A stretch of 64,000 nt of DNA from Jiangella muralis (GTDB lineage Bacteria > Actinomycetota > Actinomycetes > Jiangellales > Jiangellaceae). Position numbers and translations under genes: made by a program. This document shows positions 13,384 to 54,823 of the stretch, piece by piece. The stretch spans positions 238,279 to 302,278 of the forward strand of contig NZ_KQ434758.1 of the NCBI RefSeq assembly GCF_001270745.1. The letters run 5' to 3'. Positions within the stretch are counted from its first letter, which is position 1, and each line of letters begins with the position of its first letter. The notes beneath the pieces were generated by a model. That model had not been told where the DNA came from and searched no databases. It saw nothing but the letters and a program-made list of their open reading frames with translations.

Positions 13384-15600
13384 ATGGCGGCATTGAACCG
13401 GGCGACGACAGTGGCGGCGGCATCCTTGCTGCTCGCAGCCCTGCACGTCGCCACGTCGGGCTCGGGGTCGGGGCCGGAGTCCGGCACCGAACCGGCCGCG
13501 GGCACCGTCGTGACCGGGACGGCGCCCGCCGGGGCCGCCGGCGTGGCCGTCGAGTACGCCGCCTACCTGCCCGCCGGCTACGAGGACGGCGACGACGAGT
13601 ACGCCACGATCTACCTGCTGCACGGCCGCGGCGACACGATGGCCGCCTGGCAGCAGGTGAGCGCCGACCTCGACCGCCTGATCGCCGACGGGACGGTGCC
13701 GCCGCTGATCGCGGTCATGCCGGACGCGCCGTGGAGCGACCGCGGCAACTGGTACGTCGACTCCCTGCACACCGGCGGCGCGGCGGTCGAGACGGCGATC
13801 ACGCAGGACCTGGTCGCCCACGTCGACGATACCTACCGGACGGTCGCGGACCGCGACGCGAGGGCCGTCGGCGGGTACTCGATGGGCGGGTACGGGGCGC
13901 TCCGCTACGCCCTCGCCCACCAGGACGTCTTCGCCGCCGGCCTGGTGCTCAGCCCGGCCGCCTACGTGCCGCTGCCGCCGGCCGACTCGTCGGCGCGCGA
14001 GTTCGGCGGCTTCGGCCGCGGTGACGCCGCCTTCGACGACGCCAGGTACACCGAGCTGAACTACCCGGCGCTGCTCGGCGCCGTCGACCCGGAGCTCCCG
14101 ACGCACCTGTACATCGCGGTCGGCGACGACGAGTGGGCGAACCCGGCGCCCGAGGACGCCCAGCACGACATCGACTTCGAGTCCGCCCGGCTGTACAACG
14201 CGGCCAGGCGCGTGGACGGCGTGACGGCGGAGCTGCGCGTGCTCGACGGCGGGCACGACTGGGACGTCTGGCGCCCGGCGTTCCGCGACGGTCTCGCCGA
14301 CGTCGCCGGCCGGCTGCGCACCACCGACCCGATCCCGCTGCCCGGCGCCATCACCGGCACCGGCGGCGACGACCGCGCGGGCGGCGTCGCGGTCACGGCC
14401 GACGGCGGCACCGTCACCGCGGTCAACGAGGGCGGCGCCGGCCCCGTCCTCAGCAGCGACGACGGCTGGACGCTGCGGCTCGTCCCCGCCGGCCGGGTCT
14501 ACGGCCCGCGCACCGGCCCGGGCGGTGACCTCTACACAGCCGGCTACTCCGGCGGCGACGCGTTCGGAGCGCGGGTGACGCCCGCCGGCGAGACGGCCTG
14601 GCTGACGCGGTTCGGCCACCCGGCCGCGGCCGACCGCGCCTACGCGAGCGTCCCGGCGCCGGACGGCGGGCTCTACGTCGCCGGCTACACCAGCGGCAGC
14701 GTCGGCGGCACCCCGAACGCCGGCGACAAGGACGCACTGCTGGCCCGGTTCGACGCGGCCGGCGAGCTGCTCTGGACCCGCCAGGTCGGCGGCCCCGGCG
14801 AGGACAAGGCGCTGGACGTCACGATCGGCGCCGACCGCCGCGTCTACGTCGCGGGCGTCACGTCGCAGGCGATGCCCGGTGCGACGGCGCACGGCGGCCT
14901 GGACGCGTGGGTCGCCCGGTTCACCGACGCCGGCCAGCAGGACTGGCTCAGCCAGTTCGGCACCACCGAGAACGACCAGTTCAGCGCACTCGCGCCGCTA
15001 CCGACGCAGGGCGTGGTCGCCGTCGGCCACACCGGCGGAACCCTGGGCGCGGCGAGCTCAGGCGGCAACGACCAGCTCGCCGTCGCCGTGACGTCGTCGG
15101 GCCGGGCCCGCTGGATCACCCAGGACGGCACCGGCGGCGACGACCGCACGGCCGCCGTGCACGTCGGGACGGACGGGACCATCACCGTCGCCGCCCACAC
15201 CGACGGGCGGGCCGGCGTCAGCGCGGGCGGCGTGGACGTCGTCGTCAGCACGCTCGGCAGCCGCGGCCAGGGTGTGTCTCCCGGGTCTCGGCCGTCGCGA
15301 GCGGCGTCCAGGTGGATGCCTCGCAAGGCCGAGGAAGGAGACATAGCGGTGCCTATGGCGACTGACGAGAACGCAGCGAGGCGCCGCCTGGGCGTCGCGC
15401 AGCAGGCCACGGACCCGGGAGACACACCCTGGGTGCGCGAGCGCACCCAGTTCGGCACGCCGGAGCGCGACGGCGCCGACGAGTGGGACGAGGCCAACCT
15501 CTACCTCGACGCGACCGGCACCCTGATCACCGGCCTGACGTTCGGCGGCGGCCGCGGGCTCGGTGACGTGTTCACCGGCCCGCTGCCGTCACGCCGCTAG
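13384..15600 (+). CDS. Secreted esterase with C-terminal propeller-like repeats, interrupted in frame by a palindromic element
   Basis: 738 residues. A hydrophobic N-terminus (about 1-25) looks like a signal peptide. Residues about 35-320 are an esterase D/feruloyl-esterase type alpha/beta hydrolase, with nucleophile motif GGYSMGGYG and His in LDGGHDWDVW. From about 325 come SBBP-type beta-propeller repeats (TRFGHPAAADRAYAS, TRQVGGPGEDKALDV, SQFGTTENDQFSAL, TQFGTPERDGADE). About 54 residues between SRGQ and WVRERTQFG are encoded by a palindromic DNA element (15267-15432) and fit no propeller motif; the frame is kept. The upstream LacI operator suggests co-control with the sugar-conjugate operon, perhaps to deacylate extracellular substrate. 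The stop overlaps the convergent thioredoxin-domain gene. Confidence 0.82.
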   Translation: MAALNRATTVAAASLLLAALHVATSGSGSGPESGTEPAAGTVVTGTAPAGAAGVAVEYAAYLPAGYEDGDDEYATIYLLHGRGDTMAAWQQVSADLDRLIADGTVPPLIAVMPDAPWSDRGNWYVDSLHTGGAAVETAITQDLVAHVDDTYRTVADRDARAVGGYSMGGYGALRYALAHQDVFAAGLVLSPAAYVPLPPADSSAREFGGFGRGDAAFDDARYTELNYPALLGAVDPELPTHLYIAVGDDEWANPAPEDAQHDIDFESARLYNAARRVDGVTAELRVLDGGHDWDVWRPAFRDGLADVAGRLRTTDPIPLPGAITGTGGDDRAGGVAVTADGGTVTAVNEGGAGPVLSSDDGWTLRLVPAGRVYGPRTGPGGDLYTAGYSGGDAFGARVTPAGETAWLTRFGHPAAADRAYASVPAPDGGLYVAGYTSGSVGGTPNAGDKDALLARFDAAGELLWTRQVGGPGEDKALDVTIGADRRVYVAGVTSQAMPGATAHGGLDAWVARFTDAGQQDWLSQFGTTENDQFSALAPLPTQGVVAVGHTGGTLGAASSGGNDQLAVAVTSSGRARWITQDGTGGDDRTAAVHVGTDGTITVAAHTDGRAGVSAGGVDVVVSTLGSRGQGVSPGSRPSRAASRWMPRKAEEGDIAVPMATDENAARRRLGVAQQATDPGDTPWVRERTQFGTPERDGADEWDEANLYLDATGTLITGLTFGGGRGLGDVFTGPLPSRR
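15267..15432. repeat. Structured palindromic element, copy 1 (inside the esterase gene)
   Basis: A perfect 21-bp inverted repeat (15267-15287 and 15412-15432) encloses 124 bp. The interior shares blocks with the 54661-54823 copy: GGCGTCCAG, GCAAGGC-GAGGA, an internal hairpin CATAG-CGGTGC-CTATG, AACGCAGC and CTGGGCGTC. GGCGTCCAG can pair with CTGGGCGTC, giving a second stem. The outer stem sequence is unrelated to that of the other copy although both are perfectly self-complementary, which implies selection on structure. No transposase is nearby. It is translated in frame as part of the esterase. Confidence 0.8.
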
Positions 15601-53964: not shown

Positions 53965-54648
53965 TCACCTTTCGGGCGCGGCCAGCCGCACCCCGACGCC
54001 GCGGACGGCGTGCAGGTAGCGGGGGTCCTGCGCGGTCTCGCCGAGCTTGCGGCGCAGCCAGGACAGGTGCACGTCGACGGTCTTGTCGGCGCCGCCGTAG
54101 GGGAGCTGCCAGACCTCCGTCAGCAGCTCGCGTTTGCTGACCACCTCGCCGGGGCGGGCGGCCAGGTAGTGCAGCAGGTCGAACTCGCGCGGCGTCAGGT
54201 CGAGCGCGTCGTCGTCGAGGGTGGCCTGCCGCGAGCGCGGGTCGATGCGCAGCCCGCCGACGGTGACCGCCTGGTCGCGCTGCTCCTCGGCGCCGCGCCG
54301 CAGCACCGCCCGGATGCGCGCGTCCAGCTGCGCGACGCCGAACGGCTTCGTCACGTAGTCGTCCGCCCCCGCGTCGAGGACGGCGACCACCTCACTCTCG
54401 TCGTCGCGCGCCGTCGCCACGATGACGGGGACGTCGCTGACGCCGCGGAGCATCCGCAGCATCGCCGTCCCGTCGAGATCCGGCAGCCCCAGATCCAGCA
54501 CGACGACGTCCGGCCGGTCGCCGACCGCCTGCTCCAGCCCCGTCATCGCCGTCGGCGCCGACCGCACGGCGTGGCCGCGCTCGGTCAGCCCGCGGATCAG
54601 CGCGGACCTGATCGTCGCATCGTCCTCGACGACGAGCACCTGGGCCAT
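53965..54648 (-). CDS. OmpR-family response regulator
   Basis: 227 residues. Receiver: acidic pocket EDDATIR, phosphoacceptor Asp in VVVLDLGLPDLDG, Thr in VIVATARDD and Lys in DYVTKPF. C-terminal winged helix: LTPREFDLLHYLAARPGEVV, TVDVHLSWLRRKLGE, LHAVRGVGVRL. ATG 54648. CTTA-type 11-bp direct repeats at 52651, 54863 and 56222 are likely targets. A palindromic element (54661-54823) lies 12 bp upstream of the ATG, inside what would be the leader. Confidence 0.94.
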   Translation of the reverse strand: MAQVLVVEDDATIRSALIRGLTERGHAVRSAPTAMTGLEQAVGDRPDVVVLDLGLPDLDGTAMLRMLRGVSDVPVIVATARDDESEVVAVLDAGADDYVTKPFGVAQLDARIRAVLRRGAEEQRDQAVTVGGLRIDPRSRQATLDDDALDLTPREFDLLHYLAARPGEVVSKRELLTEVWQLPYGGADKTVDVHLSWLRRKLGETAQDPRYLHAVRGVGVRLAAPER

Positions 54649-54660
54649 GCCGACGACCCT

Positions 54661-54823
54661 AGGGGGTGGCTGACGGATATTGGTGGATGCGGGCGGCGTC
54701 CAGTCGTCGGTCCAGCAAGGCGGAGGAGGAGTTCGATGCGGAGCCATCGAGCGACGACGACAACGCAGCTGGTCGGCGTCTGGGCGTCGATCCGCGCCGC
54801 CGAAGATCCGTCAGCCACCCCCT
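54661..54823. repeat. Structured palindromic element, copy 2 (leader of the response regulator)
   Basis: Perfect 18-bp outer arms (54661-54678, 54806-54823) enclose 127 bp that share conserved blocks with copy 1: GGCGTCCAG, GCAAGGCGGAGGAGGAG, AACGCAGC and CTGGGCGTC, with GGCGTCCAG able to pair with CTGGGCGTC. The internal hairpin is CGATG-CGGAGC-CATCG, against CATAG-CGGTGC-CTATG in copy 1, so both sides changed together. The outer stem has no similarity to copy 1. It lies 3' of the pyruvyltransferase gene and 5' of the regulator gene. Confidence 0.8.

Follow-up and report, generated by a model that had tools for sequence, protein, structure and literature searches.

The window analysed here is a stretch of 64,000 nucleotides of Jiangella muralis DNA (contig NZ_KQ434758.1, positions 238,279 to 302,278 of the forward strand). 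It holds two copies of a short palindromic repeat, one inside a long open reading frame and the other next to a response-regulator gene. The two loci are subtypes A and B of one dispersed element of about 163 bp. We lean towards the reading that both are non-autonomous elements, likely moved in trans by IS5-family transposases, with a core that is predicted to fold on one strand; mobility and fold are well supported. The original prediction for this DNA had singled out the two loci by their common interior blocks, by an apical hairpin changed on both sides (CATAG/CTATG against CGATG/CATCG) and by their perfect outer stems. All of these are present in the window copies, the stems measuring 18-19 bp. 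The span proposed for the first locus, 15267..15432, does hold the element, but it takes in two flanking bases too many on each side, the exact unit being 15269-15430.

A search for further copies had been set beforehand as a refuting test. With a covariance model we found 24 near-full copies in the J. muralis genome, besides variants and deletion copies, and BLAST with each window copy returned about 12 near-full A and about 12 near-full B copies, plus partial ones. Subtype A starts with AGGGTGTGTCTCCC and subtype B with AGGGGGTGKCTGAC, each start being common to about 12 copies (loci and genomes are cited below by our working numbers, L and G). Ends are constant within a subtype, with differences that are mostly small and compensated, and larger in the B copy L047. 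When the end patterns were searched in this genome with up to three mismatches, the B pattern gave 36 sites and the A pattern 62, against 4 and 1 for reversed control patterns. Outer stems in J. muralis thus differ by subtype, not from copy to copy. The earlier description of a copy-specific stem, and of ends that are not fixed, does not fit its two subtype-wide stems; copy-specificity nearly holds in another actinobacterium, G054, where nine copies carry seven or eight stems. Similarly, the supposed lack of similarity between outer stems was overstated for the window pair, as their two starts illustrate, and is nearly true among the G054 copies.

Some J. muralis copies depart from this plan. 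Nine A-type copies (L028-L036) are without the usual apical hairpin, their centre being replaced by further GATCAGGTGAC-type palindromes; the one or two palindromes ACGATCAGGTGAC...GTCACCTGATCAT within their core make up a nested repeat family of its own. Short copies (L048, L050-L055 and L068) retain the two ends only, with internal breakpoints that vary, as separate deletions inside a hairpin would produce. In G000 a contig edge falls inside, or within about 65 bases of, an element copy at both ends of contig C7 and at the starts of C36 and C39, where the repeat probably breaks the assembly. Another repeat of G000, at C41:620, C43:23632 and C18:85677, starts much as subtype A does (AGGGTGCGTCTCCCGAGGC) and has similar flanks at the three places, but is a different element.

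The element family recurs in many actinobacteria, often in a dozen or more copies per genome. A covariance model of the core, R1, was trained on subtypes A and B and used to search 60 genomes of the class, J. muralis included, the loci listed being the best matches. It has matches in 23 of these 60 genomes and 9 of 40 genera, with up to 58 copies per genome, and by the same model the element is absent from three of 11 congeners. The exact core pattern is found in at least 118 stretches of genome contigs. For the 80 stretches listed (L107-L186) we take the source names to belong to Actinomycetota, and among them are Nocardia, Micromonospora, Microbispora, Kribbella, Streptomyces, Pseudonocardia, Rathayibacter and an Acidimicrobiales bin. 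These named loci were found by a pattern that fixes the core, and core conservation was judged solely on 15 divergent loci found by the model. Of the 80, 47 with clean ends were kept and 33 dropped; together with the 24 J. muralis copies they form the 71 elements counted below, which are 159-172 bp long and contain no transposase gene. A phage vector was rejected, with no exact pattern in viral contigs and none in phage records, and so was a plasmid vector, with partial matches in three Streptomyces plasmids.

Each window copy folds into one long hairpin, with minimum free energies of -120.5 (A) and -119.1 (B) kcal/mol and z scores of -9.5 and -11.4; none of 200 shuffles folds as well. Stems covary across copies, as the original prediction had anticipated. 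Among 84 aligned members (83 distinct), 93.6% of the cells pair and 27 of the 31 pairs have changed on both sides; the covariation score of 0.588 is reached by none of 500 shuffles (0.173 +/- 0.008), and slid structures score at most 0.102. All seven pairs of the apical hairpin vary. Between the inner stem and the apex lies an internal loop with the consensus GCAAGGCgGAGGAGGAG / CGACGACGACAACGC, which is largely kept in the 15 divergent loci and whose alternate positions would form tandem G.A pairs. A protein-coding core came into question because the window copies yield a similar peptide in one frame, and was rejected on the spacing between the core strands, which is 0, 1 and 2 modulo 3 in 20, 30 and 30 of 80 elements, no frame being kept.

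Filled and empty sites in relatives were compared, as the original prediction had proposed. The site of copy A is uninterrupted in 8 of 11 congeners, where it reads ..GGCCAGGTG.. or near, and in the other three it aligns on one side only; by congener alignment the insertion is 162 bp including the outer stem. For 18 of the 24 J. muralis copies there is an aligned empty site and for six there is none (searched in G010, G004 and G009, and for copy A in eight congeners), the alignments of L018, L020 and L046 being poor. The aligned empty sites in the genus are without the stem, which arrives with the element, and a target origin of the outer stem is refuted for the sites that could be compared in this genus. 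The other suggestion of the original prediction, a stem that is rebuilt, may apply in view of the G054 stems. In about 12 of the 18 empty sites the bases past the junction are AG, and a direct 3-bp TNA duplication (TCA, TGA, TTA or TAA) flanks 10 of 11 Micromonospora-type copies, L142 being without one. The site of L022 is filled in J. muralis and in G010 (L252), and in G004 (L268) it retains five extra bases, AGGGT, possibly an excision scar. Palindrome correction reaching into the host flanks was suspected from the CA..TG flanks of copy A and was dropped, as most of the non-T.A flank pairs are, by eye, not complementary.

In five genomes of the genus the transposase domain PF01609 was found at 21 loci. 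One congener, G010, carries a five-copy transposon of about 1.02 kb, all five copies flanked by CTAG, whose ends (AGGGAGTGTCTGACGGATC) are identical to the B pattern at 17 of 18 bases. Its protein, which has the DDE_Tnp_1 domain, belongs to the IS5 family by NCBIfam NF033580 (159 bits, cut-off 110), and a G010 B copy, L421, has an arm identical to one end of this transposon over 20 bases. An IS5-family transposase is thereby supported, by sequence likeness, as the candidate mover for one end type, B. For subtype A, one A-like end at CTAG, matching at 16 of 19 bases, belongs to an IS5-type gene in G005 (122 bits), and J. muralis itself has a frame-broken, decayed IS5-type remnant with a looser A-like end; an IS5-type gene of Microbispora has the candidate ends AGGGyGTGTATCG. 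A REP element of a RAYT system, or one of IS200/IS605 type, is ruled against by the search for the Y1 (HUH) transposase, PF01797, which was found in none of 12 genus genomes and in 5 of 14 control genomes. Likewise ruled against is an element derived from IS701, which we take to be linked to DDE_5: PF13546 was found in none of the 12 genus genomes and in 2 of 14 control genomes.

Coordinates in the window, and the features lying on and around the two copies, are collected in the table. Besides the G010 transposon, two other multi-copy transposons of about 1.0 kb sit in CTAG with different ends (CTAGATGACC.. and CTAGATGAGTGAGTCC..), and one G004 copy of these, L296, has gone in exactly where an A element ends. 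The response-regulator gene has its apparent ATG at 54648 on the minus strand, and copy B starts 12 bp upstream of that codon (window 54646-54661); an upstream ATG inside copy B would lengthen the response regulator by 33 residues.

Table. Element copies of the window, their parts and associated features (positions are those of the window)
Feature	Position	Strand	Remarks
Element copy, subtype A	15269..15430	+	162 bp, AGGG...CCCT; from sequence and congener empty sites
Subtype A left terminal inverted repeat	15269..15287	+	AGGGTGTGTCTCCCGGGTC
Subtype A right terminal inverted repeat	15412..15430	-	
Copy A inner stem and core	15297..15401	+	region of model R1
Copy A core left strand	15323..15335	+	GCAAGGCCGAGGA; conserved internal loop; tandem G.A pairs predicted, geometry inferred
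Copy A apical hairpin	15342..15357	+	CATAG...CTATG; two-sided changes in all 7 apical pairs
Copy A core right strand	15364..15377	+	GACGAGAACGCAGC
738-aa reading frame hosting copy A	13384..15600	+	in-frame interruption, 54 extra codons, no stop
Element copy, subtype B	54661..54823	+	163 bp, AGGGGG...CCCCCT; empty site CCCT^AGGG in G004 and G010
Subtype B left terminal inverted repeat	54661..54678	+	AGGGGGTGGCTGACGGAT
Subtype B right terminal inverted repeat	54806..54823	-	
Copy B inner stem and core	54689..54793	+	
Copy B core left strand	54715..54731	+	GCAAGGCGGAGGAGGAG
Copy B apical hairpin	54734..54749	+	CGATG...CATCG
Copy B core right strand	54752..54769	+	CGACGACGACAACGCAGC
Copies of the two other CTAG transposons			G004: L280, L283, L286, L289, L291, L292, L294-L297; G010: L293

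The mismatches within the arms indicate which strand folds. If the arms were kept as double-stranded DNA, or by template switching, G.T and A.C mismatches would be expected equally often. In the inner stem and core of the J. muralis A and B copies we count 104 G.T against 2 A.C, and in their outer pairs 5 against 5, using a MAFFT alignment in which RNAalifold, a program that also allows G-U, picked the inner and the outer pairs alike. Counted once per cluster and position, the core has 144 G.T against 13 A.C in an alignment made to the model, which favours G-U. A measure that needs no alignment agrees: in all 71 elements and all 15 clusters the core strand folds more stably than its reverse complement, with a mean difference of -20.4 kcal/mol for the inner part, and with DNA folding parameters it does so in 70 of 71. 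It is chiefly this bias that points to a single-stranded mode of action for the inner part. A replication-strand bias was also considered and rejected; the samples of G010 and G009 have a weak GC skew, and a hand count of orientations in G009 gave about 7 leading and 12 lagging (one near the guessed terminus omitted), with no clear bias.

The outer arms turn over between lineages while remaining paired. For the 19 end types compared, the first arm agrees with its own partner at 16.6 of 20 positions and with the partner of another type at 6.0. Turnover is most marked in G054, where ten copies were read from 0.8 Mb, one of which (L403) is without matching arms. In the other nine, outer-arm identity between copies is 38% in fixed register and complementarity within copies is 91%, and the inner arms are 79% identical between copies; outer-arm differences in fixed register are two-sided in 398 cases and one-sided in 62. 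As L388 (G054) and L422 (G010) are out of register in such a comparison, it was repeated with shifts, and with the best shift the G054 outer arms are 50% identical, against 43% for shuffled letters. Arms are related or equal in two pairs of copies, which leaves the seven or eight end types. A search for an autonomous partner in G054 and G031 that started from the ends, made with one end type, returned a single G054 copy and one relative. The pattern is milder in G028 (60-63% identical between copies, 91% complementary within). It is barely visible in the B copies of G010, where the outer arms are 89% identical between copies, register-corrected, and 89% complementary within, and in G037, where the figures are 92% and 78%. 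Ends that differ from copy to copy thus characterise some genomes, but not the Jiangella genus.

On the reading that we prefer, an IS5-family transposase would act in trans on the terminal inverted repeats of the element, and the inner stem and core would work as a folded single strand, either RNA or single-stranded DNA (ssDNA), of one defined strand, the core presumably being transcribed or otherwise made single-stranded. The element would then have two layers: outer arms of about 18-22 bp, which resemble the ends of transposons and which differ between lineages, and in G054 between copies, yet stay paired; and an inner stem, internal loop and apical hairpin whose fold is retained. CTAG-like targets often coincide with the TAG stop of a gene, and in 25 of the 71 elements the stop of a neighbour falls exactly at a junction, so that insertion would spare the stop codons of neighbours. 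The original prediction had set a folded RNA or ssDNA against a conventional transposon. Its first half is supported, given the covariation and the strand bias, while insertion by other than transposon means is not, since ends in J. muralis are fixed within a subtype (L047 departing more), the B end matches the IS5-family transposon of a congener and Micromonospora-type copies have 3-bp duplications.

Several observations weigh against this reading. At the genus junctions, TA is found in 4 of the 18 empty sites (the 54661 copy, L037, L039 and L044), many others are CA or GA, and no clean 2- or 4-bp duplication was seen. In J. muralis itself no gene is bracketed by a matching pair of ends (up to three mismatches). 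Seven other carrier genomes were searched for PF01609, with hits in six; none of the 27 loci has a matching pair of ends, up to 5 mismatches in 20 being allowed, and there were single weak end-like hits only. No gene lies within matching ends in 0.8 of the 4.0 Mb of G054. The seven or eight end types of G054 are hard to square with one sequence-specific transposase. Nor are the two layers cleanly separated, because the outer arms show a strand bias of their own over the 71 elements: their wobbles, again counted once per cluster and position, are 24 G.T against 11 A.C (p 0.04), and taken alone they are more stable on the core strand in 53 elements and less stable in 10, the former in 11 of 15 clusters. 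Outside the Jiangella genus the outer arms may also be under some single-strand constraint. The nine A-type copies with an interrupted core are multi-copy as well, so the core is apparently not necessary for spread, and single moves can probably do without it; its role may lie in persistence over the longer term. Finally, tandem gene contexts are evenly oriented (17 against 16), which suggests that the element does not act like a cis element of one gene, and no promoter-like site was found at 15200-15500; taken together, these give no direct sign of transcription.

A broader reading takes up the turnover of the ends. It is possible, and we put it forward tentatively, that the family is a phylum-wide mobile RNA or ssDNA fold that changes vehicles, with the core kept and the paired ends exchanged or re-made, near copy by copy in some genomes.

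A rival proposal is that the element itself moves as a folded strand, recognised by its fold or core and not by the sequence of its ends, with the arms re-made on each other at each move, for example by way of a self-primed hairpin. The G054 arms, so different between copies and so well paired within them, would then find a ready explanation, as would the excess of two-sided differences there and a strand bias that extends to the outer arms. We nevertheless consider it unlikely: the genus has no Y1 transposase in any of the 12 genomes, the subtype B ends match those of a transposon, copies with an interrupted core still spread, and the outer arms in the genus have no wobble bias and are nearly constant among the G010 B copies.

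Pairing could also be a by-product of replication. Template switching can create and maintain RNA hairpins, according to PMC8794818, and long palindromes would be suitable substrates for it; the repeat would then be an ordinary miniature inverted-repeat transposable element (MITE) whose arms are kept paired by polymerase template switching, and its fold would be functionless. This explanation is disfavoured, and we give it a slim chance. It predicts no strand preference, whereas the core strand is the stabler one throughout and G.T far outnumbers A.C in the inner part, and it should erase the mismatches of the internal loop, which are kept in divergent loci.

A host-beneficial 3'-end element (a terminator or mRNA stabiliser) whose spread as a repeat is incidental would suit the gene contexts of the 71 elements, which are convergent in 19 and divergent in 5, and the TAG stop codon of a neighbour that is formed exactly at the junction in 25 of them (9 of 24 in J. 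muralis and 16 of 47 named, by a simple gene finder), but it is very improbable, as there is no orientation bias, only one of the 47 named copies has TTTT within 15 nt of the stem, copy A lies inside a reading frame and copy B 12 bp before an apparent start codon, and stop codons are expected anyway from CTAG targets.

The usual view of MITEs is that they are dead products of deletion whose ends stay fixed. The MITE-like element described here has an elaborate one-strand fold over a very wide host range, with ends that turn over, and this raises the questions of what purpose the fold has and how paired ends change jointly. Both can be put to a direct test, thanks to the empty and filled sites, the asymmetry of the wobbles and a multi-copy transposon with matching ends. 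For genome annotation, an abundant repeat that by our searches is absent from Rfam 15 is added to the actinobacterial inventory; it can extend reading frames, as copy A does, and it probably breaks short-read assemblies.

The original prediction could name no known family, and the comparison with Rfam agrees. The 64-kb window has no match in Rfam 15 at gathering scores, HEARO and other mobile RNAs included. In searches by E-value with three copies, the best Rfam models are eukaryotic hairpins far below gathering: a Nocardia copy against MIR3454 (50.5 of 142 bits, E 5e-10) and copy B against MIR1858 (29.7 of 137 bits), with one chance hit beside copy A. On our reading the element is a widespread, structured IS5-type MITE variant that is not described in the literature we found. 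We found no published description of it, although the 250 'mobile/repeat' candidates of PMC11109978 are mostly in its supplement and may include it, and the parts consulted of PMC8632094, PMC2864571 and PMC2267715 contain none.

Of the known dispersed repeats, REP and BIME elements, which are mobilised by RAYT, are also dispersed hairpins. They have a short conserved foot and need a Y1 transposase, which the present genus lacks. RUP, Correia and ERIC resemble the present element as palindromic MITEs of about 100-170 bp, and they differ from it in their hosts. To our knowledge, changing arms around a kept core are not known for any of them. RUP, moreover, is tied not to IS5 but to IS630, being linked to IS630-Spn1 by a common terminal inverted repeat and TA targets, as outlined in sections of PMC2229807.

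The nearest published description that we found is that of MRSC-65-2, in the main text of PMC11109978. It has a single long covarying stem, often in dozens of copies per genome and sometimes near a transposase, and its authors leave open whether the active form is RNA or DNA. The long covarying stem and the multiple copies are the likeness. The internal loop of the present element is not mentioned in the main-text description, and the UYCCGG repeat of MRSC-65-2 occurs on the core strand in 7 of our 71 elements, never twice. MITEPsy1 of Pseudomonas syringae is an IS5-related MITE of 100 nt with an 18-nt terminal inverted repeat that duplicates CTAG or YTAA (PMC3189936, in its passages on this element). 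It is proteobacterial, and neither a conserved folded core nor a strand bias is mentioned for it in those passages; as a small IS5-related MITE with a CTAG target, it is nonetheless like the present element.

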